Part shown: positions 5,425-44,980 of the stretch, piece by piece
How the letters are laid out: each line of letters begins with the position of its first letter
Position numbering within the stretch: the stretch's first letter is position 1
DNA from: an uncultured bacterium
GTDB lineage: Bacteria; Bacillota; Clostridia; Lachnospirales; Lachnospiraceae
Direction: 5' to 3'
Length of the DNA: 64,000 nucleotides
NCBI GenBank assembly: GCA_947647735.1
Contig: CANSLJ010000012.1
Span: forward strand, 1 to 64,000
The notes under the pieces: generated by a model
What the model saw: only the letters and a program-made list of their open reading frames with translations
The model's database searches: none
What the model was told of the DNA's origin: nothing
Translations under genes and position numbers: made by a program

Positions 5425-5688
5425 ATGAAATATGAGATTAGCTATATTGGAGATGAAAGCATTAGCAATGTTCATCATATTGGAATTGATTACAACGGAA
5501 ATTATTATAGCGTGATTTTCGGAAAATATGTAAATGGAGGATTTTTCAGTATTCCGAATCTGGGTGTCGGCGGAGAATTGAGCCATTTTAATGATACCTT
5601 TTGGAATGAAGAATCATTGCGCAGGGTATTAAAGAGTAAACGTGTAGCAAAGGTGATTGCGATGGCTATTGCACAATTTGATGTATGA
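5425..5688 (+). CDS. Hypothetical protein, DUF6618-like
   Basis: This 87-residue beta-rich protein carries a GIDYNGNYYSVIFGKYVNGG core, a Gly-rich loop and a C-terminal helix. It resembles small phage proteins classed as DUF6618, though I cannot confirm this. An AGAGGTGTGAT ribosome binding site precedes the ATG at 5425. It is the last plus-strand gene of the repeat-separated island. Confidence 0.65.
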   Translation: MKYEISYIGDESISNVHHIGIDYNGNYYSVIFGKYVNGGFFSIPNLGVGGELSHFNDTFWNEESLRRVLKSKRVAKVIAMAIAQFDV

Positions 5689-6046: not shown

Positions 6047-8548
6047 ATGAATTACTTAGAGTTTTTAAAAAGTAAGATAGAGATTGCAAAGGACAGTGGT
6101 TTTGAAGTTTCAAAAGAAGAAATAAACCCGGCGTTAAAACCGCACCAGAGGGATGCTGTCATATGGGCGCTCCGCGGTGGAAGAAGGGCCCTGTTTGAAT
6201 CTTTCGGCTTGGGGAAGACCGTGCAGGAACTGGAATTCTGTCATCAGGCAGTAAGAAAATTTGGCGGGAAGGCACTTATTGTATGCCCGCTGGGCGTAAA
6301 GCAGGAATTTTCCCACGATGCCGCCTGCCTTCTAGGGTACGCAGCGCCGGAGTATGTACGGAACATGGAGGAAGTGGAGGCTTGTGGGACGGATATCATG
6401 ATAACCAATTATGAGCGCGTCCGTGATGGAAATATTGAACCATCTTATTTCGCGGCGACATCCCTTGATGAAGCGAGTGTGTTAAGAAGTTTTGGAAGTA
6501 AAACCTATCAGATATTCCTTGATAAGTTTAAGGGAATTCCGTACAAATTAGTTGCCACGGCAACGCCTTCACCGAATAAATACAAGGAACTGATCCATTA
6601 TGCCGGGTATCTGGAAATCATGGACACCGGGCAGGCGCTGACAAGGTTTTTCCAGAGGGACAGCACAAAAGCAAACAATCTGACGCTGTATCCGAACATG
6701 GAGGATGAGTTCTGGTTATGGATAAGCAGCTGGGCGCTGTTCATCACGAAGCCGTCAGACATAGATCCGGCATATTCTGACGCAGGGTATGTACTGCCGC
6801 CGCTCCGTGTAAGGTGGCATGAGCTGCCGATCGAGTACGGGAATGCAGTGGATAAAGACGGGCAGATGTGCCTGTTCAGCGAAGCAGCGGCGGGACTGAA
6901 AGAAGCGGCACAGGTCAAACGGGAGAGTATTGACAGGCGTGTTGGAAAAATGAAGGAGATCGTTGATGCATCGCCGGAAGATCATTTTATCTTATGGCAT
7001 GACCTGGAAGCGGAAAGGACCGCGGTCAAGAAAGTACTGCCTGAAACAGTTGATATTTACGGTTCTCAGGATTATGAATTGAGGGAACAGAGGGTGATCG
7101 ATTTTTCGGAAGGCAGGACAAGACTGTTTGCGACTAAAAAAGAACTGTCAGGCTCCGGATGCAATTTTCAGAGATACTGCCACCGGGAAATATTTCTTGG
7201 CATTGATTATGAGTTTAATGATTTTATCCAGGCAATACACAGATGCTATCGATTCCTGCAGAAAGAAGAAGTGGCCATAGATATCATCTACATGGAAAAT
7301 GAGCGGGAGATCAAGGAAGCACTGCTTGAAAAGTGGAAAAATCATATTCATATGGTGGAAAAGATGATAGATATCGTTAAGAAATACGGCTTATCCGGAT
7401 CGGGAAGAAAGTATGCATTGCAAAGAAAAATGGGAGTAAAGACAGTGAGGATAGAAGGCAGCAGGTACACAGCGGTAAATGATGACTGCGTAGAAGAGAC
7501 AAGGCGGATGGAAACGGGAAGCGTGGACTTGATCCATACATCCATTCCTTTCGGCAACCATTATGAATATTCTGCAAATTATAACGATTTTGGACATAAC
7601 AGCAACACGGAACGGTTTTTTGAACAGATGGATTATCTCACACCGGAACTGCTGCGGGTACTGGCGCCTGGAAGAGTGGCGGCAATCCATGTGAAAGACC
7701 GGGTGTTGTTTGGGAATGCGACCGGCACAGGCATGCCGACAATAGAGCCGTTCCATGCATTATGCATCAGCCATTACATGAAACATGGATTCCAGTATTT
7801 TGGCATGATCACGATCATAACAGATGTTGTGAGGGAAAATAATCAGACCTACCGTCTTGGTTGGACGGAACAGTGCAAGGACGGATCAAAGATGGGAGTC
7901 GGGTGCCCGGAATATATCCTGTTATTCCGAAAACTCCCTACGGACAGGTCTACGGCATATGCAGATGTACCAGTAGTAAAGGCGAAAGATGCATACACAC
8001 GGGCACAGTGGCAGATCGATGCGCACGCTTATTGGAGGAGCAGCGGAGACAGGTTGATCAAAAAGGAAGAACTGAAAGATTTTCCAGTAGATAATCTGCA
8101 GGCTGTTTACAGGGAGTACAGCAGGGAAAATGTATATGAGTATAAAGAGCATGTGAAGCTGGCGGAAGATCTGGACAAAAACGGAAGGCTTCCGGCGATA
8201 TTCATGGTAGTTGCGCCAGGGAGCTGGAACCAACTGGAGGTATGGGATGATATCAACCGCATGAGGACACTCAATACAAACCAAAGCAGGCGCCGCCAGC
8301 AGATGCATGTGTGCCCGTTGCAGCTTGATATAGCGGAACGTATCATCAATCGTTATAGCAATGAAGGTGAGGTGGTCTATGATCCGTTTGGCGGGCTCAT
8401 GACGGTACCGATGACAGCGGTGAAGATGAAGCGGTACGGGATAGGATGTGAATTGAATGCAGATTACTTCCGGGATGGGATCGGTTATTTAGAGGCAGCA
8501 GAGGCGGAAGTGGAATCGCCTACATTGTTTGATTTTATAAAGGGTTAA
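6047..8548 (+). CDS. SF2/SNF2-type helicase fused to a DNA methyltransferase
   Basis: This is an 833-residue two-part enzyme. Residues 30-430 are a superfamily 2 helicase: Walker A GLGKT (54-58), a variant DEAS box (about 140-143) instead of DEAD/DEAH, the VATATPS motif III, and a motif VI-like QAIHRCYR (about 395). Residues 450-830 are an N4/N6 methyltransferase: catalytic motif IV reads SIPF (about 499-502) instead of S/D-P-P-Y/F, and DPFGG (about 779-783) with the following GIGCELN forms the AdoMet-binding part. It probably translocates on and methylates phage DNA and may counter host restriction, as P1 DarB does by another architecture. The neighbouring PAPS-reductase-like gene starts 10 bp downstream. 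Confidence 0.85.
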   Translation: MNYLEFLKSKIEIAKDSGFEVSKEEINPALKPHQRDAVIWALRGGRRALFESFGLGKTVQELEFCHQAVRKFGGKALIVCPLGVKQEFSHDAACLLGYAAPEYVRNMEEVEACGTDIMITNYERVRDGNIEPSYFAATSLDEASVLRSFGSKTYQIFLDKFKGIPYKLVATATPSPNKYKELIHYAGYLEIMDTGQALTRFFQRDSTKANNLTLYPNMEDEFWLWISSWALFITKPSDIDPAYSDAGYVLPPLRVRWHELPIEYGNAVDKDGQMCLFSEAAAGLKEAAQVKRESIDRRVGKMKEIVDASPEDHFILWHDLEAERTAVKKVLPETVDIYGSQDYELREQRVIDFSEGRTRLFATKKELSGSGCNFQRYCHREIFLGIDYEFNDFIQAIHRCYRFLQKEEVAIDIIYMENEREIKEALLEKWKNHIHMVEKMIDIVKKYGLSGSGRKYALQRKMGVKTVRIEGSRYTAVNDDCVEETRRMETGSVDLIHTSIPFGNHYEYSANYNDFGHNSNTERFFEQMDYLTPELLRVLAPGRVAAIHVKDRVLFGNATGTGMPTIEPFHALCISHYMKHGFQYFGMITIITDVVRENNQTYRLGWTEQCKDGSKMGVGCPEYILLFRKLPTDRSTAYADVPVVKAKDAYTRAQWQIDAHAYWRSSGDRLIKKEELKDFPVDNLQAVYREYSRENVYEYKEHVKLAEDLDKNGRLPAIFMVVAPGSWNQLEVWDDINRMRTLNTNQSRRRQQMHVCPLQLDIAERIINRYSNEGEVVYDPFGGLMTVPMTAVKMKRYGIGCELNADYFRDGIGYLEAAEAEVESPTLFDFIKG

Positions 8549-13208: not shown

Positions 13209-13457
13209 GTGAACAGAGTGGGATTTATTATTTTATCAATTCTCCACAAAGAGGGGGCTGTAAACAAACTCTCCTCAATGACGCTTCGGGAAATAGCACA
13301 GACAGAGAAATTTGATGTAAAAGAAAACACTATATTCAAAAAATTAAAAGACTTCGAGCATTCTGGGTATATAGGTCGTGGGCTGAAAGAGGGACATGCG
13401 GACACATTTTATATCACACCGGAAGGCATCGGATGTCTGGAAAGGGAAAAATTATGA
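13209..13457 (+). CDS. tubR: Winged-helix DNA-binding protein, candidate TubR
   Basis: The protein has 82 residues from a GTG at 13209, preceded by GAAGGGGG. It has an ArsR-like winged-helix layout: helices 1-2 (GFIILSILHKEG), a recognition helix (ENTIFKKLKDFEHSG) and a beta-wing (GHADTFYITPEG). TubR proteins are small winged-helix dimers that bind the iterons and recruit TubZ. The assignment rests on fold, size, the adjacent iterons and the overlap with the tubulin-like gene (ATGA junction), not on direct sequence identity. Confidence 0.7.
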   Translation: MNRVGFIILSILHKEGAVNKLSSMTLREIAQTEKFDVKENTIFKKLKDFEHSGYIGRGLKEGHADTFYITPEGIGCLEREKL

Positions 13458-14485
13458 GAGAAAAGATTGCTTTTGTTGCTGTGGGACAGGCAGGGGGGAA
13501 CATTGGGAGGCTTTTTGAGGGAAAAGGATTTGCAGTCCTTTATGTAAATACTTCAAAGGAGGATCTTGATACGCTGGAACATGCAAAATTTAAACATCAC
13601 ATTTCAGGAGGAGAAGGATGCAATAAAGACCGCCACAAAGCAAAACAGCTTGTTGTAGATGATTTTGATAACATAGCGGGCGAGATCGAATCAAAAATAA
13701 AAGCAGACATGATATTTGTGATCTTCGCCAGCGGAGGCGGAACAGGATCAGGAGCCGGTCCTATGCTGATGGATCTCCTGATTGATGAAGGCAGGACGAT
13801 CGGGGCGGTGACGATTCTTCCGGCGCCTGATGAGAGTGTGAAATCACATATCAATTCATACGAATGCTTTATGGAACTGACAGAGATAGAAGGAACCGGC
13901 GCATGTTTTATCATCGATAATATGCGTGGCGAGAAGATAGGATTAAATTCGCATTTTGTGGATTCTTTTACGGATTTTATTGATATTCCGGACAAGCACA
14001 AAAGCATCAGGGGGAATATTGATAAGGCGGAGATTGAAGAGACATTAAAAGCACATGGAATGGCGGTTGTAGTGAGCCTGCAGGCGGAGGAAAGTGCCGA
14101 GGTGATTGAGGCCCTGAGAGAAAATGCTTTTGCGCCAGTGGAAACGGATCGAGCTGTAAAGTATATTACGGCATCTATGTCCGGCAATGTTAAAATGTCT
14201 GATCTGGAAAAAGCAATCGGCACACCAATCGATAATTTCCAGACATTCAATGATCAGGGGACGATCTGCTGCATTTCCGGTCTGACATATCCCCAGGCAC
14301 GTTTTGAGGATATCTACAAAAAGGTGTCAGAAAATAAGGACTTGATCAAAAAGAATCTTGCCGCCACGCATGAGACGGGAATGAAAAAGAACATAAATTT
14401 CCTCGAGGATATCGTCGGATCTGAAAGGAAAACAGAAGTACAGAAGCCAAAATCAAGGCGTGACATTATGAGTAAATATTTATAG
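13454..14485 (+). CDS. tubZ: Tubulin/FtsZ-superfamily GTPase, candidate TubZ
   Basis: The protein has 343 residues. The nucleotide-binding T1 loop is GQAGGNIG (11-18) and the tubulin signature T4 loop is GGGTGSG (94-100). A T7-like loop NIDKAEIEE (from 188) supplies acidic residues that complete the GTPase site of the next subunit. The C-terminus is a flexible basic tail (KSRRDIMSKYL). TubZ polymers move plasmid or phage DNA by treadmilling. The start codon overlaps the stop of the candidate tubR (ATGA), with GGAAAGGG as ribosome binding site. A chromosomal FtsZ is ruled out by context and by lack of the FtsA/ZipA-binding tail. Confidence 0.85.
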   Translation: MREKIAFVAVGQAGGNIGRLFEGKGFAVLYVNTSKEDLDTLEHAKFKHHISGGEGCNKDRHKAKQLVVDDFDNIAGEIESKIKADMIFVIFASGGGTGSGAGPMLMDLLIDEGRTIGAVTILPAPDESVKSHINSYECFMELTEIEGTGACFIIDNMRGEKIGLNSHFVDSFTDFIDIPDKHKSIRGNIDKAEIEETLKAHGMAVVVSLQAEESAEVIEALRENAFAPVETDRAVKYITASMSGNVKMSDLEKAIGTPIDNFQTFNDQGTICCISGLTYPQARFEDIYKKVSENKDLIKKNLAATHETGMKKNINFLEDIVGSERKTEVQKPKSRRDIMSKYL

Positions 14486-19142: not shown

Positions 19143-19166
19143 GGGCCATAAAAGGGGGTGCATTTC

Positions 19167-19730
19167 ATGAATACGGTGGAGCCGATTCGGGATATGGATC
19201 TTGTGTTGGATGTGGCTGATTATCTGAAATCGAAAAATGAGCGTGACTATGTATTGTTTATGTTCGGAATATATACAGGACTCAGGATCTCAGATATATT
19301 GAAATTCCGGGTACGCGATGTGAAGGATAAAGATGCTGTATATATACGGGAGAAAAAGACAGGAAAAGAAAAACGCTTTCCTATAAATGCGGAGCTGAAA
19401 CCAGTGATTGAAAACTATATACGTGGAAAAAGAGATTTTGAATATTTATTTAAATCCCCTAATTTTCCTAATAAGGCAATCAGCAGACAGCAGGCATATA
19501 ATATTCTGGCAGAAGCAGGGGAGGCATTTGGTATCAGTGCCATAGGCACGCATACATTGCGAAAGACTTTCGGTTATCATATGTATCAGCAGACACATGA
19601 TGCCGTGACAATTAAGGAGATACTGAATCATTCTGATATATCTGTGACATTGCGGTATATAGGGATCAATCAGGACAACAAAGACAAGGCTATCAAAGGG
19701 CTGACATTTAGGAAGGGGAGCCACAGATAA
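19167..19730 (+). CDS. Catalytic-domain-only tyrosine recombinase
   Basis: The protein has 187 residues, lacking the N-terminal core-binding domain of normal integrases. The catalytic set is visible: Arg in TGLRISD (about 40), Lys in EKKTGKEKR, HTLRKTFG (His about 128, Arg about 131), His of NHSDIS (about 154) and the Tyr nucleophile in TLRYIG (about 164). The ATG at 19167 follows AAAAGGGGG. Its size and position before terminase suggest a resolvase that converts multimers or circularises DNA rather than the integrase. The phased TGTCGTG repeats upstream may be its sites. Confidence 0.8.
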   Translation: MNTVEPIRDMDLVLDVADYLKSKNERDYVLFMFGIYTGLRISDILKFRVRDVKDKDAVYIREKKTGKEKRFPINAELKPVIENYIRGKRDFEYLFKSPNFPNKAISRQQAYNILAEAGEAFGISAIGTHTLRKTFGYHMYQQTHDAVTIKEILNHSDISVTLRYIGINQDNKDKAIKGLTFRKGSHR

Positions 19731-37356: not shown

Positions 37357-37668
37357 GTGTTAGTGATAGATGGCGTACAGATTATTATAAATAATGTATA
37401 CGAGAGGAAATTGAGAGAAGAAATCCTCGATAAAGTTATTTTTCTGTTAACGTGTATAAAAGGTACGATTCCGATGAATAGGGAGATTGGACTTGATCCT
37501 GATATTATTTCAAGCCCGCCATATATCGCCCGGAATCTTTATACAATCAGTGCAATCGAATTGTTTGATAAATTTGAGCCACGTGCCAGCGTGGAAGAGA
37601 TATCATTTGAGTCAAATGGTATTGAAAATATAATCCCAAAGGTGGTGTTAACATATAATGGCGAATGA
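37357..37668 (+). CDS. Baseplate wedge protein (GpW/gp25)
   Basis: The protein has 103 residues from a GTG at 37357 with AAGGCGGTGG upstream. GTIPMNREIGLDPDI is the gp25/lysozyme-like wedge signature (IPMNRDFG type). It overlaps gpJ by 11 bp. Confidence 0.82.
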   Translation: MLVIDGVQIIINNVYERKLREEILDKVIFLLTCIKGTIPMNREIGLDPDIISSPPYIARNLYTISAIELFDKFEPRASVEEISFESNGIENIIPKVVLTYNGE

Positions 37669-38815
37669 AATACAAAAACTGTACAGCCTCCCAGATATTT
37701 CCTTTATAAATGGCATTTCATATGAACAGATATTAAATGAAATGATTGCTGATTATGAAGCGAAATATCGGGAAATAACAGGAAAAAAAGTTACATTGCG
37801 GCCGGGTGATAAAGAATATATTCATCTGCGGATAGAAGCAGGACAATATTTCCAGATGTATCAGATGCTGGATAATGCAGCTAAAATGAACCTTTTGAAG
37901 TATGCGAAAGGTGATTATTTGAAGCATTTGGGAGCGCTTAAAAGAACTTTTATCCAGGAGCCAAAAGCATCTGTAGTCAGGGCAAGGTTTACACTTTCGA
38001 AATCAAGAAAAGATGTTGTTTATATTCCACAGGGAACCAGAATCACAGCAGGGGATGGAATATATTTTGCAACGAATAATTATGCTGAAATAAAGGCAGG
38101 TGAAACCTATATTGATATTGACTGCACATGCGAAGTTCCCGGAACGGTTGGTGAAAAATATATGGTCGGACAAATTGATACCATTGTAGATCCGGTGCCT
38201 TATGTTGCATCAGTTACCAATATTACGGAGTCACAAGGGGGAACGAATGAAGAATCGGAAGAAAGTTTTCGTGAAAGGATTTTTCTGGCGCCTTCTGGGT
38301 ATTCGGTGGCTGGTCCCTCGGATGCATATGAATATTGGGTGAAACAGTATAATAGTGCAGCAATAGAAGATGTGAAAATATATGAGCCATCAGATGCTGT
38401 TGTAGATATCAGAATTCTTCTTTTGGGAGGTGTGATCCCAAGCCAGAGCTTCTGTTCGGACTGTTTGGAATATTTAAAAGAAAATCCGATCATTCCTTTG
38501 ACTGATAAGGTTCTGGTAGCGCCACCTGATGTGGTGAATTATGAGGTGAGAGCGACTTATTATATTGGAAAGAGCGATATTAATAATATGGCATCCATTC
38601 AGCAATCTATTGAAGCAGCAAAAGAAACATATCTAAATTGGCAGAGGACGAAAATAGGGCGGGACATTAATCCGGATGCTCTTACAGAATTTGTCAGGGC
38701 GGCTGGAGGAAAGCGTATTGAAATAACTTCTCCGATATTTACGCCGATTCCGGAAACATCGATTGCGATGGAAACATCGGTTGAATTTGCTTATGGGGGT
38801 ATAGAAGATGATTAA
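37658..38815 (+). CDS. Baseplate protein J
   Basis: The protein has 385 residues. VRARFTLSKSRKDVVYIPQGTRITAGDGIYFAT and GGTNEESEESFRERIFLAP are the gpJ (Mu gp47) signatures. It forms the ring of the baseplate wedges. The downstream gene overlaps by 8 bp. Confidence 0.92.
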   Translation: MANEIQKLYSLPDISFINGISYEQILNEMIADYEAKYREITGKKVTLRPGDKEYIHLRIEAGQYFQMYQMLDNAAKMNLLKYAKGDYLKHLGALKRTFIQEPKASVVRARFTLSKSRKDVVYIPQGTRITAGDGIYFATNNYAEIKAGETYIDIDCTCEVPGTVGEKYMVGQIDTIVDPVPYVASVTNITESQGGTNEESEESFRERIFLAPSGYSVAGPSDAYEYWVKQYNSAAIEDVKIYEPSDAVVDIRILLLGGVIPSQSFCSDCLEYLKENPIIPLTDKVLVAPPDVVNYEVRATYYIGKSDINNMASIQQSIEAAKETYLNWQRTKIGRDINPDALTEFVRAAGGKRIEITSPIFTPIPETSIAMETSVEFAYGGIEDD

Positions 38816-39449
38816 GATTAGTGACTATCAAACGGAAAATGCACTCCCATCGGAAATGAAAACAACGGAAAGAAGAGCTTTATCATATGCGTTTGACCGT
38901 CAGAAAAGGAAATATTGCGAATATATAAATCGTGCATGCATATGGGGAAATATCGAGAATGTTGATGAGGATAAGCTTGACTTTCTTGCGGTTGAAAACC
39001 GAGTAATGTTTTATGATTCTCAGATGGAAACGGAAGTAAAAAGAAATTTCCTTTCAAATTATCTCAGCTGGTATCTAAAATTAGGAACGGGGATGGCGGC
39101 AGAAGAGGTTATTGATACATATTATTCGGGCAGCGGAACAAAGCTTGTTAAATGGTTCGAGTATGATGGAGAACCGTATCATTTCAGGATTGAGACAACA
39201 GCAACACTGGGAGAAGATTGTTATGCAGATCTCAAACAATTGATTTTTAAGGTTAAAAATGCACGGTCACGATTGGATCAAATTCGTACAATGCGTTACT
39301 TGTCTTCAGCATATTCTGCAGCAACCGGGACGATATCAAGATGTAAGAATCCTCCTATAAAGGAGGGAATGTCGATAGCGAGAAATATAGAAGATGATTT
39401 TAATGCAGTTGTTAGTATTGATACAATGCAAAAGCAGTCGATTTATTAG
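38808..39449 (+). CDS. Tail protein I
   Basis: The protein has 213 residues. AFDRQKRKYCEYINRACIWGNIENVDEDKLDFLAVE is typical of P2/Mu gpI, which links wedges to tail fibres. GGGGGTATAGAAG precedes the ATG. The tail fibre gene follows after 27 bp. Confidence 0.85.
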   Translation: MIKISDYQTENALPSEMKTTERRALSYAFDRQKRKYCEYINRACIWGNIENVDEDKLDFLAVENRVMFYDSQMETEVKRNFLSNYLSWYLKLGTGMAAEEVIDTYYSGSGTKLVKWFEYDGEPYHFRIETTATLGEDCYADLKQLIFKVKNARSRLDQIRTMRYLSSAYSAATGTISRCKNPPIKEGMSIARNIEDDFNAVVSIDTMQKQSIY

Positions 39450-39476: not shown

Positions 39477-40808
39477 ATGCCAAGAGAGTTTAACAAATCG
39501 ATTATGACAGATAATGGAGCAATGCTCCTGAATCGTGCTCAGGCGGGGGAAGTTCTTCTTGAATTCACGAGAATGGTGATAGGAGATGGAACTTATACTT
39601 TGGAAGAAGCAAGTACAGAAGTTATGCAGAAAATGGAGAATTTGAAATCTCCCAGAAAAAGTTATCCTATCATTGAAAAAAGTCTGGAAAAAAAGAGATG
39701 CCTGAAATTGACATCTGTTTTTTATAATTATACGCCGGGAAACGAGGAGGCATATGTTGAAGAGGGCTTTTTTGTTAATGAGATAGGATTATTCTGCAGG
39801 GAAAAAAATAATGAAGAGAGTGAGATCTTATATAGCATAGTGACAGTAAAGGATGGTCCAGGAGATTATATGCCTGCATATAATGGGGAAAATCGTGCCG
39901 AAATTCTCCAAACTTGGTATACGACAATTACAAATGATGGCATTGCTTATATCAAACACGAGGATGGGACATTTGCATTAGCAGAAAATGTTGAGAAACT
40001 GGCTGAAAGAATAGAAAGTATTATTGAATCGATTTTCGATGAGGAAAATGAACTGAATATATCGGAATCTATCATAGATTTCGATGATTCTGGAGAAGTC
40101 GAAGGCATAGAATCCTTCACGGATTTTATGGAAAAACTTGTGAAAGGGACAAGTATATATCAGATTTTCACGAACCTAAAAGCCGGGTTGAAATATGTCC
40201 TGCACACAGGAAAGCTTGTAAACTCTGGCATGTGCGAAACGCCCGGGGAGTTTGCGTTGGATGCGGCATACGGGAAGTATCTCACGGATCAAATATCCCA
40301 AGTATATAGTGAAATGTCGGTGCGCTATAATGCTCAGACAGACTATATTCAGGTGTACAGCGGCCAGCAATGGCATAATTGGATGACTGCTGGTCTATTA
40401 TGGGACGGTTACTTATATAATTACGGAAAATTCTCGGAATACTTTTCCGGTTTTTCTGGTAACGGCAATGTATACCACAAAGCAGATCACATCAGTGTAA
40501 TCGCAGGACCAGTAACAGGCACCAATCTTGTCACCGTAAAAAGTAATCAGATCGATTTTTCAAAATATAAAAAAATCAAGATTAATGCTAAATCTTCTGT
40601 ATATACTGCCGGTGCCTATTATACAAATATCTATATAGAAAGTAAGAGCGGAAATATAGTGACCGGCAAAAAAACACTCTCAACCGCTGCAACTACATAT
40701 GAATTAGATGTAACCGGTGTCGATGTGGGGTACATTGTTTTACAATCATATTTGTATAATATCACGCTTAACTTTGAGAACTTTATTTATTTTATCCAGA
40801 TTAATTAG
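39477..40808 (+). CDS. Tail fibre protein, expressed variant of the shufflon
   Basis: The protein has 443 residues from the ATG 39477 (AGAAGGGAG upstream). Residues 1-160 are the collar-fibre N-terminal domain (KSIMTDNGAMLLNRAQAGEVLLEFTRMVIGDG) that attaches to gpI. Residues 160-275 form the shaft. The variable receptor-binding tip begins after a crossover site that encodes VYSE (about residue 276-279) and runs to the end. Three other tip-coding segments lie downstream and can replace this one by inversion. Confidence 0.88.
   Translation: MPREFNKSIMTDNGAMLLNRAQAGEVLLEFTRMVIGDGTYTLEEASTEVMQKMENLKSPRKSYPIIEKSLEKKRCLKLTSVFYNYTPGNEEAYVEEGFFVNEIGLFCREKNNEESEILYSIVTVKDGPGDYMPAYNGENRAEILQTWYTTITNDGIAYIKHEDGTFALAENVEKLAERIESIIESIFDEENELNISESIIDFDDSGEVEGIESFTDFMEKLVKGTSIYQIFTNLKAGLKYVLHTGKLVNSGMCETPGEFALDAAYGKYLTDQISQVYSEMSVRYNAQTDYIQVYSGQQWHNWMTAGLLWDGYLYNYGKFSEYFSGFSGNGNVYHKADHISVIAGPVTGTNLVTVKSNQIDFSKYKKIKINAKSSVYTAGAYYTNIYIESKSGNIVTGKKTLSTAATTYELDVTGVDVGYIVLQSYLYNITLNFENFIYFIQIN
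40290..40316 (+). repeat. Shufflon crossover site 1 (forward)
   Basis: The site carries the core ATATAGTGA at 40304-40312, preceded by TATCCCA. The same nine bases occur at the three other segment boundaries, always in the same codon phase, so exchange at this core keeps the fibre reading frame. Confidence 0.75.
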
Positions 40809-40823
40809 TATGATAAATAACTT

Positions 40824-41367
40824 TTACTGATTTGAAATCAAAAGTTGTGCTATTGTAAATCCCCTCGGCCTCCAAGGATATCCACCACTTATCATACTGA
40901 TTCTCAATTTAATGCTCTGGCCTTTGAGAGATGCTAATGATAATTTGACAGTAGTATTAGTTGTACTGTTGATCGAAGCAGTTTCCATCAGCTTTGCCCC
41001 AGCGCTGTTTAGGACTTCAACTTTTAAGTCATGATCAATGTGTCCTTGATATCCAGATCTCGTTATACATGCGCCAGCAAACGTTAAAGTACATTTCGCA
41101 TCAGATATTTTAATAGGAACAGTATAAGTCCTCGTTATCAATGCATCATAATCATCAAAGTCTGGATGGTATTCAGCATATGATGTATATTGTAATTTTG
41201 TGGAAGTATTTACATCTAGTTTCGTGGCTGATGTTCCATAATTATAAGCATTTTGAAATGGCGCAGTCATAAAATCGAATGTAAAGGGCGCTGACAGATC
41301 TCCGCCTGTAATCGCATTAGTAACTCTGGTGTCCAAAGCAGAAAGATCATTCCTTAAAATCTGAATA
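40824..41367 (-). CDS. Silent tail-fibre tip segment B (inverted)
   Basis: This 181-codon open segment on the minus strand lacks a ribosome binding site and begins inside crossover site 2. It continues in the correct phase: YSDIQILRNDLSALDTR, then Thr/Ser-rich beta-structure to the stop at 40824. It lies tail-to-tail with the expressed tip, 15 bp apart. Inversion between sites 1 and 2 would attach it to the fibre shaft and silence the current tip. Confidence 0.75.
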
Positions 41368-41390
41368 TCACTATATTCTGGGAAATTAGT
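41364..41390 (-). repeat. Shufflon crossover site 2 (reverse)
   Basis: The core ATATAGTGA on the minus strand (41376 to 41368) is preceded by TTTCCCAGA. It lies in reverse orientation to site 1. Confidence 0.75.
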
Positions 41391-41541
41391 AAAAAAGTGT
41401 GTTACATTTTGTATGTAATTTAAAATATACTATATATACATAATATTTTTTCTTAAACTCTTGGGATTGATCTGCATGTTATGAAAGGAGATGTTATAGA
41501 AAATACAAAATTTCCATAGTTAGACCCATGGTTATAAAAAG

Positions 41542-41665
41542 ATGGTGACCGCGGTTGATAAGTTGCAATACTTAAGTTTTTATCATTGGTGCATTATTCG
41601 TTGTGGCAGCAACGTTTTGTCTAAAGTATTTTATCTACCGATGGGCAGTTTTATCACGCATGTAA
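41542..41665 (+). pseudogene. Type I toxin-like hydrophobic peptide, frame broken in a T-run
   Basis: The frame opens MVTAVDKLQYLS and is followed, one base out of frame after a five-T run (41577-41581), by FIIGALFVVAATFCLKYF and a short basic end (RWAVLSRM, stop at 41663). With four T's the product would be a 40-residue hydrophobic peptide typical of type I (TxpA/BsrG-like) toxins. As sequenced, the zero frame gives a polar 43-residue peptide. It is a loss-of-function change, or a sequencing error, or a phase switch in the homopolymer. Confidence 0.5.
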
Positions 41666-41772
41666 TCGTATAAGGCAAGCGTGATAGTGGTGAAGGTGTA
41701 TAATGTGCAAAAGTCCATGCCATAGCACGCATACCCGATAATGCTAACGATTAATCCTATGATAGTGCTCAT
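41635..41772 (-). CDS. Small hydrophobic peptide opposite the toxin-like gene
   Basis: The peptide has 45 residues with an excellent AAAGGAGTAAGG site before the ATG at 41772. MSTIIGLIVSIIGYACYGMD is membrane-spanning, and the end is basic (YDYMRDKTAHR). Its 3' end overlaps the toxin-like frame on the other strand. Both transcripts start with almost the same sequence (AAAGATGGTGAC versus AAAGGATGGTGAC) in inverted orientation. Whether it is itself a toxin or part of the antitoxin RNA is open. Confidence 0.5.
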   Translation of the reverse strand: MSTIIGLIVSIIGYACYGMDFCTLYTFTTITLALYDYMRDKTAHR

Positions 41773-41825
41773 ACCTTACTCCTTTCGGTGCAAGTCAGTC
41801 ACCATCCTTTTTATAATACTAAAAG

Positions 41826-41862
41826 AAATTCCAACTATCAATGAGATAGTTGGAATTTTTTG
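41826..41862. terminator. Strong bidirectional terminator
   Basis: A perfect 14-bp stem (41826-41839 with 41845-41858, loop AATGA) has a T-run on the right and an A-rich flank on the left. It isolates the small peptide locus from the recombinase gene. Confidence 0.85.
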
Positions 41863-42029
41863 TCAATTAGAAGAAAATATGAGCGAAGAATGTTAAAAAA
41901 CATTTGTTACAAAGAACAATAGTCACTTAGTTGTAAAACAGTGATATGTCGGTAGAACAGAAGAAAGAGTTTTATGGGCGTGCATAGCTGATGTATTAAT
42001 ATAGTTACCTTCTTTCTGTATGAGGGGTA

Positions 42030-42094
42030 CAAAAGGAGCGTGTGATATATACGAAAAAGGAAAGTAGAGATACTGCTCTTTTTCGTTCCTTTTG
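42030..42094 (+). promoter_or_regulatory. Nested inverted repeats in the recombinase leader
   Basis: CAAAAGGA (42030-42037) pairs with TCCTTTTG (42087-42094), and ACGAAAAAG (42051-42059) pairs with CTTTTTCGT (42078-42086). The structure lies just upstream of the ribosome binding site CAAAAGGAGG (about 42114-42123) of the recombinase gene and could limit its expression, or be an operator. Confidence 0.5.
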
Positions 42095-42131
42095 ATACAA
42101 TTTTTATATAAATCAAAAGGAGGGTATCATT

Positions 42132-43151
42132 ATGTTGCAACAAATCTTGGAAAAGGTGATAGATACGATGACGCCGCATCTGGATCCAGAACAGCTGGAA
42201 AAGCTGGAGAACGTACTCTATATCAACTTCCACGATATAGAGGTGAAGCAGGAGTGTTATGAATTGAAACCAACGGGCCTCAACGGGAATGCTGCAAAGC
42301 TGGATCTATTTGTGAAAAGCAAGTTGGCGGTGAATCGGCAGGCGGAGACAATGAAACAGTATGCCCGTGAGATATGGAACGCATTGAGCTTCATCGGCAA
42401 AGATGTGACAGATATCAAAGCTATGGATTTGCGGTATTATTACGGATACCTACGGGAGACACGGCATCTGAAAATGTCTACGATTGAAACCAGAATGCAT
42501 TACCTGAGTAGCTTTTGGGATTTTCTTCTGGCAGAAGAAATGGTGAGCGGGAATCCGATGAAGAAAGTGGGCGCAATTAAGGTGGACAAATTAATAAAAA
42601 AGCCGTACAGCGCCAGAGATATGGAGGCTATGAGGAGCAGCTGTAAGCGGATCAGGGATAGGGCGTTGATAGAATTTTTATACTCAACAGGCGTCCGGAT
42701 ATCAGAGGCCCATGCGCTGAACGTGGGTGATATTAATCTGGAAAAGATGGAACTTATCGTGTACGGAAAAGGGAGCAAAGAACGGAAAACCTATCTGACG
42801 GAAAGCGCAAAATTTTATTTGGAAAAATATCTGAAAGAGCGCTGTTTTTCTGAAAGAATAACATATGAGGAATTGAAGGAAAGGCCTCTATTCGTGACGT
42901 CCGACAAGAATCATCGAAGGTTCTCGAAAGATGGTATAAGAGACATGCTAAAAGCATTGGAGAAGAGGGCAACAGTAAAAGACGTGCATCCTCATCGGTT
43001 CCGGCATACTATAGCTACGGAATTGTTAAGTAGAGGGATGCCGTTGGAACAGGTGGGAGATTTCTTAGGGCACGAAAAACTGGACACAACCCTAAGATAC
43101 TGTACGGTGCGAGATGAGGAGGTCAAGGCATCGCATCGTAAATGCGCTTAA
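42132..43151 (+). CDS. Tyrosine recombinase of the tail-fibre shufflon
   Basis: This is a 339-residue XerC/D-like recombinase with both domains. The N-terminal SAM-like region (residues 50-160) is followed by a catalytic domain with Arg in TGVRISEAHAL (about 189), Lys in GKGSKERK, HPHRFRHTIA (about 286-295), His of GHEKLDTT (about 314) and Tyr of TLRYCT (about 323). It lies between two pairs of inverted tail-tip segments, so inversion of those segments is its likely job, as Rci does in the R64 shufflon. AAAGGAGGG precedes the ATG. Confidence 0.88.
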   Translation: MLQQILEKVIDTMTPHLDPEQLEKLENVLYINFHDIEVKQECYELKPTGLNGNAAKLDLFVKSKLAVNRQAETMKQYAREIWNALSFIGKDVTDIKAMDLRYYYGYLRETRHLKMSTIETRMHYLSSFWDFLLAEEMVSGNPMKKVGAIKVDKLIKKPYSARDMEAMRSSCKRIRDRALIEFLYSTGVRISEAHALNVGDINLEKMELIVYGKGSKERKTYLTESAKFYLEKYLKERCFSERITYEELKERPLFVTSDKNHRRFSKDGIRDMLKALEKRATVKDVHPHRFRHTIATELLSRGMPLEQVGDFLGHEKLDTTLRYCTVRDEEVKASHRKCA

Positions 43152-43346
43152 AATAAGTTTGACTTTAGATGAATAAAAAGTGTAACTCATTTGTAAAAGG
43201 ATAATTGTACTCTTAAAAAATAGAATGAGTTTGATTTGTCAATGACTATAGTATAGAGTGTATGCTTTGGCGGGCGGAAACGGCTGCTTTATTAAGTTTA
43301 AGCATTTTTGGCACTGATAATGGAGAAAGTGATAGGAAAAGCAGAT

Positions 43347-43373
43347 AAAAAATTCCCATAATATAGTGATTTA
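43347..43373 (+). repeat. Shufflon crossover site 3 (forward)
   Basis: The core ATATAGTGA lies at 43361-43369, preceded by ATTCCCATA. An in-frame TAA lies directly before the core, so this segment can only be read after recombination. Confidence 0.75.
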
Positions 43374-43817
43374 CAGGATCTTATCGTGTCCGCCAATGTA
43401 CGAGCAAATCTATCTATAGGTTATGTTCAGTACAGATCCCTCAATAATACATGGGTAAATCTGTTCCAAATTGGCAAAAATCCTATGATCGCAGAAGACA
43501 TTACTATTCCAAATAAAACGATAACATCGGCCAAATCAAGAACTACTATCAATACAGGAGTTGTCGTTAGTGCTGGGAGTTATAATTACATTACTGGCAC
43601 AGTAAGTTATCCGCATGCTGCTGGCAACAAGCTTGGTGTAATGATAGGCGCAACAGATCTCGGCACTGTTGCATCAAGCTCTAGTACAGGAAACAAAGCT
43701 TACAATAAGTCTATTCCTGCGGCCGCGGCAGGACAAGTAATATTCTATCAAGAGGGTGTTAGTCAGAGTATCGGTACAACAGGAAGTTTCAGTAATTTTA
43801 AATTAACAAATATCTGA
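43370..43817 (+). CDS. Silent tail-fibre tip segment C
   Basis: About 148 codons open from crossover site 3 (YSDLQDLIVSANVRANLSIGYVQ), with no start codon and ribosome binding site of its own. It is rich in Ser, Thr, Gly and Asn as fibre tips are, and contains the segment SAGSYNYITGTVSYPHAAGNK. It would become the tip after two successive inversions. Confidence 0.72.
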
Positions 43818-43841
43818 TTCAAGGAGATAGTATGCTGTATA

Positions 43842-44145
43842 CTATGTTTGATCTATCAGTAAGCCTTCTTTTATAAATATGAAAAATACCCTTACAGGCC
43901 ATGTCCCTACCTGTTGGCTAATATAATATATGGGGAAACTGGTACCATGTCCACCGAACTTTCCGGCCACAAATGCTTGTGTATTCCCAACCAACATATT
44001 AGGTGTTCCAGACGCTAGGACAAAATCAAATATTTTATATCCATTTGGAGTTTCGGGATATGGAATATATGCAGTGCCATGCTGGCCGACAGCCGTAACA
44101 GTAACATTTACGCTATTGTGCTTTATCAGAAACATTCCATTTATA
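43842..44145 (-). CDS. Silent tail-fibre tip segment D (inverted)
   Basis: This is an open segment of about 101 codons on the minus strand that begins in crossover site 4 (YSDINGMFLIKHNSVNVTVTA) and ends at 43842. It contains GHGTSFPIYYISQQVGTW. It has no own translation start. Inversion between sites 1 and 4 would join it directly to the fibre shaft. Confidence 0.72.
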
Positions 44146-44166
44146 TCACTATATTCAGGGAAGTTT
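44142..44166 (-). repeat. Shufflon crossover site 4 (reverse)
   Basis: The core ATATAGTGA on the minus strand (44154 to 44146) is preceded by CTTCCCTGA, closely matching site 2. Confidence 0.75.
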
Positions 44167-44186
44167 AATATGAAATCGAAAAAAAT

Positions 44187-44208
44187 AAGACCTCATGGTC
44201 TTTTTTTA
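44187..44208 (+). terminator. Terminator closing the shufflon
   Basis: AGACC (44188-44192) pairs with GGTCT (44197-44201) around TCAT, with a T-run of seven. It lies between the last crossover site and the next gene. Confidence 0.75.
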
Positions 44209-44239
44209 ATACATAAATATATAAAAAGGAGGATTTCTT

Positions 44240-44980
44240 ATGGAAAAAATCAAAATTGGTAAAAAGAAAAAGCTGTATGAAGTCGAAAGCATTATGCATC
44301 ATCCGCCTAATCTGCTGAAGATTGTCTTTCCGGAAAACGAAGAGCTTCCGGAATCATGGACGGGGGATATTCAGATCTGTACAGTTGGAAGCATCCCCTA
44401 TACTGTCAAGGACGGATATGAGACGGTATACCTGCAAGAAGGCAGGACAGTATACTTATCCAACGATGGCAGCGTATATGTCCCGCCGGCGCCGCCCGAA
44501 TCGGAGCCTGAACCGGAACCGCCCACATTGACAGAAGTTAAGGCTATGAAGAGAAGGGAAATCTCTACGATATGCGAGCAGGTGATCTATTCAGGGATCA
44601 ATGTAGAACTGTCGGACGGAGAGCAATATCATTTTTCCCTTACGATTAAGGATCAGATCAACCTTTTCGGCAAAAAGGATCAGCTGAAGGCAGGGAAAGA
44701 TCGGATTGAATATCATTCGGATGGAGGGCCGTGCCGGTATTATGGCGCTGAAGATATGCAGAATATTGTAGAATCATCCATGTGGCATGTGTCCTATCAC
44801 AGAACTTACTGTAATGCCCTCAATATGTGGATTGCCGGATGCGAGAACGTGGAGGAGGTGCAGGAGATATTCTACGGCGCTGACGTTCCGGAAAAATACA
44901 GGAACGAAGTGCTTAACGATTATCTTACGCAGATTGCTGAGATGGCGGCGGAAAGGAGGAGCGATGAAGAAACTGTATAA
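44240..44980 (+). CDS. Tail-fibre-associated protein, DUF4376-like
   Basis: The protein has 246 residues. The first 85 residues are beta-rich, followed by a Pro/Glu linker (PPESEPEPEPP) and a helical domain with VKAMKRREISTICEQVI, ELSDGEQYHFSLTIKDQINL and WHVSYHRTYCNALNMWI. That domain resembles phage tail-fibre assembly/DUF4376 proteins. AAAGGAGG precedes the start. It lies outside the shuffled region, so it would serve all fibre variants. It overlaps the next gene by 17 bp. Confidence 0.7.
   Translation: MEKIKIGKKKKLYEVESIMHHPPNLLKIVFPENEELPESWTGDIQICTVGSIPYTVKDGYETVYLQEGRTVYLSNDGSVYVPPAPPESEPEPEPPTLTEVKAMKRREISTICEQVIYSGINVELSDGEQYHFSLTIKDQINLFGKKDQLKAGKDRIEYHSDGGPCRYYGAEDMQNIVESSMWHVSYHRTYCNALNMWIAGCENVEEVQEIFYGADVPEKYRNEVLNDYLTQIAEMAAERRSDEETV

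Follow-up and report, generated by a model that had tools for sequence, protein, structure and literature searches.

A predicted receptor-binding-protein shufflon with a recombinase gene inside the array in a Lachnospiraceae prophage

We analysed a stretch of 64,000 nucleotides (the window; contig CANSLJ010000012.1, positions 1 to 64,000, of assembly GCA_947647735.1) from an uncultured bacterium of the Lachnospiraceae. On the 3′ side of a prophage tail operon, which includes the tape measure, baseplate J and tail protein I genes, lies an array formed by a complete tail-fibre gene, silent tip segments on both strands and a gene for a tyrosine recombinase (Table 1). The initial annotation, made by a model from the letters alone, had proposed that this is a shufflon with four interchangeable tips and its own tyrosine recombinase. 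Both the anatomy of the array and the occurrence of the same array in differing arrangements in relatives bear this proposal out.

Four tips and a recombinase gene between four sites

The nine bases ATATAGTGA occur five times in the window compared to 0.73 expected, and five or more copies were found in 0 of 100 shuffled sequences. Four of these copies, S1 to S4, had been predicted to open the four tips, and all four are exact. The fifth copy, at 40654 (+), which the initial annotation did not mention, lies inside tip A in a different frame that is open for 15 codons. On the 5′ side of the core we found TTCCC at S2, S3 and S4, in line with the three segments noted before, and ATCCC at S1. When read from TAT-AGT-GA, the claimed common codon phase opens all four tips over the lengths given in Table 1. 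This is the longest frame at each site, a choice between two frames because the core's own TAG shuts the third. Among the four nine-mers with at least four copies between positions 38800 and 45000, only ATATAGTGA opens at least four same-phase frames of at least 90 codons.

The sites form the inverted pairs 1/2 and 3/4, as previously described, and likewise 1/4 and 2/3; the pairs 1/3 and 2/4 are direct. In segment C, a TAA stop codon abuts the core on its 5′ side. Joined to the 276 constant codons, tips A, B, C and D would give predicted fibres of 443, 459, 427 and 379 residues, respectively. When the tips were compared with one another by blastp at 1e-3, no match was found. As expected for a shufflon, start-less alternative ends thus lie in both orientations behind a constant fibre base, each with a short repeated site ahead of it and all in a single codon phase.

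In the 339-residue recombinase, the Phage_integrase domain extends across nearly the whole model, and the matches in the PDB are XerC-like, XerD and XerA chains, while the protein stays below the cut-off for all 11 NCBIfam families listed. Residues R189, K213, H286, R289, H314 and Y323, which we take to be the catalytic residues, are invariant across an alignment of nine recombinases. The protein consists of the core-binding and catalytic domains only, with about 50 residues ahead of the XerD-like part. Just ahead of the terminase, the window contains a second tyrosine recombinase open reading frame (ORF; 190 residues, 19158-19730), and therefore the protein encoded inside the array need not be the integrase. 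A nucleotide search of a phage collection gave no match. As a protein, the recombinase matched 637 phage records, all below 60% identity and with about 34% for the best one listed.

Table 1. Features of the predicted shufflon and its surroundings (positions in the window)
Feature	Position	Strand	Remarks
Baseplate J-like gene	37658..38815	+	Upstream of array; Pfam PF04865, E 9.5e-42
Tail protein I-like gene (Tail_P2_I)	38808..39449	+	Pfam PF09684, E 7e-14
Complete tail-fibre gene, present state (276-codon constant N-terminal part and tip A)	39477..40808	+	PHROG phrog_7037, tail fiber protein, E 4.8e-28, residues 4-179
Crossover site S1, within fibre gene	40304..40312	+	ATATAGTGA; same place in L006, L057, L153
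Tip A, 167 codons, joined to fibre base in present state	40305..40808	+	
Silent tip B, 183 codons	40824..41375	-	Homologue in S2 of L006, 66% identical
Crossover site S2	41368..41376	-	ATATAGTGA
Small hydrophobic ORF, 45 residues, candidate type I toxin-like	41635..41772	-	Between S2 and recombinase; no Pfam family above cut-off
Tyrosine recombinase, 339 residues, XerC/XerD-like, proposed invertase	42132..43151	+	Pfam PF00589, E 3.1e-34
Crossover site S3	43361..43369	+	ATATAGTGA
Silent tip C, 151 codons	43362..43817	+	TAA directly before core
Silent tip D, 103 codons	43842..44153	-	
Crossover site S4	44146..44154	-	ATATAGTGA
Gene after array, DUF4376-like, tail-fibre-associated	44240..44980	+	PHROG phrog_1348, E 2.2e-10; Pfam DUF4376, E 1.3e-4, below cut-off; DNA conserved in relatives

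The array and its arrangements in related genomes

Loci (L) and genomes (G) are given here by our handles. Recombinases 76-78% identical to that of the window were found in L006 (Bacterium 1XD8-76), L057 (IMG/VR) and L153 (from a congener), and all three loci harbour the same four sites with the recombinase between two convergent tip pairs. Contig C22 of G715, a genome that shares its genus with the window genome, yields the same array as L006; L002 is identical in DNA to L006 and was not counted. Recombinase matches at 1e-40 were present in 51 of 397 genomes sampled from the host's family, with up to five candidates scored per genome. At 1e-80, the only match among 392 order-wide genomes was the window's own genome.

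In total, we scanned 68 recombinase loci (the window, L006, L057, L040-L055, seven viral loci and L103-L144), which include all 58 other places from the 397-genome search. The compact test applied asks whether a single 8-mer opens four tips arranged as +, -, recombinase, +, -. Of the 68 loci, 16 were positive, covering 11 of the 397 family genomes, and fill was at least 0.9 in 13 of the 16. In the controls, the test hit 4 of 191 overlapping positions of the window, all through one 8-mer with a fill of 0.73, and none of 23 positions elsewhere in the loci; no control reached a fill of 0.9. The fill of L057 (0.51), L112 (0.73) and L044 (0.79) is not clear of the control hit when taken alone. A looser detector reported a partial layout or better in 18 of 18 control stretches and the full four-site layout in one; because such looser detectors gave false positives, only the compact test was counted. 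Accordingly, L046, L051, L061 and L064, which by appearance carry a partial or diverged array, fail the test and were not counted. Outside the 68-locus test stand L153, in which the layout is present, the duplicates L002, L058, L066 and L067, the short near-copy L065 of L064, and the distant L003-L005, L007-L009, L069 and L070. Inspection of L003, L007, L008 and L009 revealed no clear array. Some of the 52 negative loci are cut by contig ends. In a recombinase tree of 64 of the 68 loci (four short matches were dropped), the positives fall in three clades, each with 100/100 support.

The cores in the clade of the window are TATAGTGA or AATAGTGA. Other cores are TTAAATGGTAA in L050, TTAAATCACAA in L053, TAAATAGAAAATTA in L054, CAAAATTCTAAGAT in L105 and CTAAGTGCGAA or a variant in L112. 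Core and recombinase thus change together between clades, whereas the geometry remains constant. The TAT-AGT-GA phase is the longest frame, again as a choice between two frames, in 33 of 33 examined sites. These were hand-picked: four from the window (the decoy at 40654, which fails, was omitted) and 29 of 48 core-like hits. Among the 19 hits omitted, 6 lie in duplicate loci and 13 are mostly distant from the recombinase or in other genes. The 16 arrays have 48 silent sites, and at 16 of these a stop codon stands directly ahead of the core. If such stops are to stay out of the fibre, the exchange point would lie downstream of them.

Relatives differ in how the array is arranged. On a single contig of G046 we found two copies, whose recombinase DNA is 97.5% identical, with the segment from the third to the fourth site inverted between them. 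The alignment covers 563 bp at 98.8% identity and ends in the core, and the flanks confine the exchange to AATGATATAGTGATTTAGCT. Among the three copies in G013, the tip at S1 of L111 reappears at S2 of L113 in opposite orientation (93.5% over 802 bp), and the tip at S2 of L111 reappears at S3 of L112 (96.9% over 160 bp). In the clade of the window, the tip that lies silent at S2 of L153 resembles the fibre-joined tip of L057 (71% of 92 residues; 78.5% at the DNA level over 279 bp from the site). Up to the first site, the viral contigs L064 and L065 share 99.4% identity over 1815 bp, and from the second site on they share 99.2% over 2003 bp; no match is listed between these two sites, where the tips differ. 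The L065 tip is also found in L063 on another fibre base, with 98.6% identity over 360 bp beginning at the site.

The recombinase gene had been expected to invert together with the large segment, and three arrays in which it opposes the fibre fit this. When the fibre side is judged by the outer site that ends the longer upstream frame, the recombinase has the direction of the fibre in 12 of 15 decidable arrays and opposes it in the other 3, L129 being not decidable. The opposed arrays, L059, L053 and L105, belong one to each of three clades, and L105 is the weakest case (112 codons). Three changes on the tree for three opposed rows correspond to the chance level, and the orientations are therefore read as scatter, not as a rate. 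Judged from the arrangements in relatives, there is strong indirect support that the kind of array found in the window really shuffles.

Among viral contigs, one relative of the fibre base was found (L056, 42%), with the core directly behind the base; a search of these contigs with tip B yielded no relative. Matches in an Rfam scan all stayed under the gathering scores. In the S2 segment of L057, a Gly-rich ORF of 306 residues (L057:2520-3440, -) follows a tip end of 35 codons and recalls adhesins encoded apart from the fibre.

Predicted inversions, competing explanations and known systems

We propose, with a probability of about 0.9 on the grounds of the sequence comparisons above, that the window array serves a prophage with a baseplate-J-type tail as a receptor-binding-protein shufflon, in which the recombinase inverts DNA between the cores and joins any of the four tips to the fibre base. 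The recombinase would exchange strands within a short core around TATAGTGAT, and the opposed pairs 1/2, 1/4, 2/3 and 3/4 would invert the intervening DNA. Any of the four tips could then be joined in frame to the 276-codon base, while an unjoined tip would be silent, and the recombinase gene itself would be part of an invertible segment. That this recombinase is the actor, and that it acts in the window prophage at present, is what we infer. The window prophage may then exist as the mixture of at least four receptor-binding types foreseen by the initial annotation. Enumeration of the inversions possible from the window state yielded 16 states, with four for every expressed tip. The recombinase points each way in eight of them, and the order of the sites is always +, -, +, -. 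In all 16 computed states, each deletion between direct sites takes out the recombinase. How such systems escape direct-site deletion is a question posed by Mavrich et al. 2018 (PMC6109161). The geometry would give a testable partial answer, because a deletion always removes the enzyme and then stops. The host range of such prophages would be given by a population of states rather than by one genome sequence.

The tips may bind different receptors, probably glycans. A model of tip B, built from an alignment of three sequences, predicts an N-terminal helix that starts at the crossover and leads into a beta-sandwich, with a mean predicted local distance difference test (pLDDT) score of 67.4. Among the 50 PDB matches listed were carbohydrate-binding modules, lectins and phage tailspike or tail-fibre chains. 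Surface glycan binding by the tips is therefore plausible from the model.

Several observations weigh against the shufflon reading or parts of it. The pLDDT of tip B is modest, the tip-normalised template modelling (TM) scores are 0.28-0.42 among the 50 matches listed, and unrelated proteins were matched as well, namely enteropeptidase complexes and an ephrin-receptor domain. G046 is listed at 8% contamination, yet both its copies lie on one contig. The pairing of recombinase and sites is suggested by their position and by the cores differing among recombinase clades. Most loci at 31-36% recombinase identity are negative in the compact test, many with 3 kb on either side, so that array switching is not the general task of the wider recombinase family. 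In addition, S1 deviates from the other three sites, with ATCCC upstream and AAT after the core where S2 to S4 have TAT or TTT, and the window prophage is known in one state, from one draft genome. Such drift of S1 and the single known state would also be seen if a once working shufflon had decayed, its state being now fixed in the window prophage and the tips being remnants. We regard this as unlikely, as no tip frame is interrupted, all four share the codon phase, the recombinase has a full-length catalytic domain and the core is exact at four sites.

The PHROGs label of the recombinase is integrase, and one tip occurs on different fibre bases (L063 and L065). Both would agree with a prophage integrase whose attachment remnants are the repeats, the tips having been gathered by homologous or horizontal exchange. 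This explanation leaves the four alternating in-phase sites and the inverted states of relatives unaccounted for, and with the second tyrosine recombinase ORF ahead of the terminase it becomes very improbable. Diversity-generating retroelements and gene duplication are common in gut phages, and either might have made the tips. The lack of mutual blastp matches among tips A to D speaks against both, as does the lack of a long repeat pair among the repeats listed, which cover 20 of 22 direct families (a reverse transcriptase was not searched by name), and we consider such an origin hardly credible.

In the Rci shufflon of IncI plasmids, a tyrosine recombinase likewise serves several inverted segments that give a single protein alternative C-termini. 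The protein concerned sits at the pilus tip of a conjugative plasmid, and the recombinase gene lies at the end of the array. The nearest known systems are the Rin shufflons, from which the embedded recombinase and the alternating sites set the window apart. As in the window, the Rin shufflon of Bifidobacterium breve and B. longum prophages joins exchangeable C-termini to the constant N-terminus of a receptor-binding protein, with a short asymmetric site preceding every variable part, and it has a separate integrase and a XerD-like tyrosine recombinase that lacks an arm-binding domain (PMC6109161). Its inversion was observed in reads from virions and lysogens (PMC6109161). However, the Rin recombinase flanks the array and the variable genes are described as tandemly oriented (PMC6109161), whereas in the window the recombinase lies between S2 and S3 with two convergent tip pairs, and the tips alternate. 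The Rin site, TTCCCTAACCC (PMC6109161), differs from the core ATATAGTGA and only TTCCC is common to it and S2-S4. Compared with Rin by its description, the window array thus departs from this subtype in two respects, the place of the recombinase gene and the sequence of the site.

A Rin-type shufflon is described in clade 1 prophages of Eggerthella lenta (PMC8778435), which like the window have a tyrosine recombinase separate from the integrase, variable receptor-binding ends and short repeats as expected crossover sites. The sequence of these 8-bp repeats (ttccgtat) and the host phylum are different from those of the window. Inversion by Min, Cin and Gin of the coliphages p15B, P1 and Mu likewise joins alternative tail-fibre ends to a constant base, and Min acts on several segments as in the window (PMC6109161). 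These enzymes are serine recombinases (PMC6109161), in contrast to the tyrosine recombinase (PF00589) found here. In the mostly open-access literature, we found no description of a shufflon in phage tails of Lachnospiraceae or Roseburia and, going by titles and the opening of abstracts, no paper on this array family; passages of PMC10197239 and PMC11892184 contain nothing bearing on it. The embedded recombinase with alternating sites would represent a recurrent shufflon form of fixed geometry in another bacterial family, whose recombinase-core pairs have drifted apart.

Tandem units and small genes around the array

The embedded recombinase might render the array self-limiting, and direct-site circles with two tips, one site and the recombinase might be mobile, re-inserting at cores in other phages or in the chromosome and spreading tips as cassettes. 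We offer this as a tentative idea that is rather doubtful. If true, direct-site recombination would leave behind a fibre that has two tips but lacks the enzyme, and both the tip common to L063 and L065 and tandem units in G721 would be traces of cassette spread. Contig C46 of the congener G721 (L156:1-5385) carries two copies of a 2592-bp unit as an exact tandem, with an identical run of 2602 bp. The unit consists of a tip, an opposing tip, a 162-residue ORF and a recombinase 65% identical to that of the window, with the core at its bounds, and the contig ends just past the third core. The other flank is not a tail operon: it starts with about 190 bp, 48 bp of which recur elsewhere in G721 and in G719, in sequence read as an IS200-type transposase fragment. 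Beyond it lie genes read as fatty-acid synthesis, which are 97% identical to G715 over the compared stretch. A Baseplate_J gene was not found in the G721 assembly, which is 87% complete. The tandem hints that units of tips plus recombinase can be excised or amplified. Both a true tandem insertion and an assembly loop caused by a circle would imply direct-site recombination; a plain misassembly is a possible alternative.

The 45-residue ORF between S2 and the recombinase is flanked by inverted GGTGAC motifs, and the element (about 41380-41900) resembles type I toxin-antitoxin loci. Conservation at 72% over about 500 bp surrounding this ORF was seen in one of eight other congeners searched, G184, and the 7 kb analysed there contained no recombinase match. 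In several relatives, a Hol_Tox-type element of about 280 bp is located just upstream of the recombinase (L006:5617-5902, L059:5731-6016, L060:6637-6897, L062:6611-6895 and L068:6648-6897). With all loci oriented to have the recombinase on the + strand, the L062 element has the opposite orientation. PF16935 was above the cut-off for two of four Hol_Tox peptides tested. By DNA similarity to L006, the element is also present in L153 and L155, and it lies near two of the three G013 copies. Relatives of Hol_Tox occur in 40 of 200 family genomes.

A toxin-antitoxin gene shielding the array from deletion was considered as a mechanism and rejected. In L057, L040 and L043 the gap between S2 and the recombinase is below 90 bp, too short for the element, and the window carries a different small ORF. 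In addition, a recombinase relative was found near only 1 of 30 Hol_Tox loci (of 61 places listed, with up to about 1.5 kb on each side).

Upstream of the recombinase, a leader-like ORF (GTG ATA TAT ACG AAA ...) overlaps a terminator-like hairpin, both in the window (42020-42090) and in L006 (about 5530-5590); this is possibly an attenuator. Elsewhere in the prophage, we found a TubZ-like tubulin gene (13433-14485; PF22340, PF00091), hinting at plasmid-like maintenance. Near the start of the contig, a protein of 833 residues (6047-8548) combines SNF2-like and N6/N4 DNA methylase domains.

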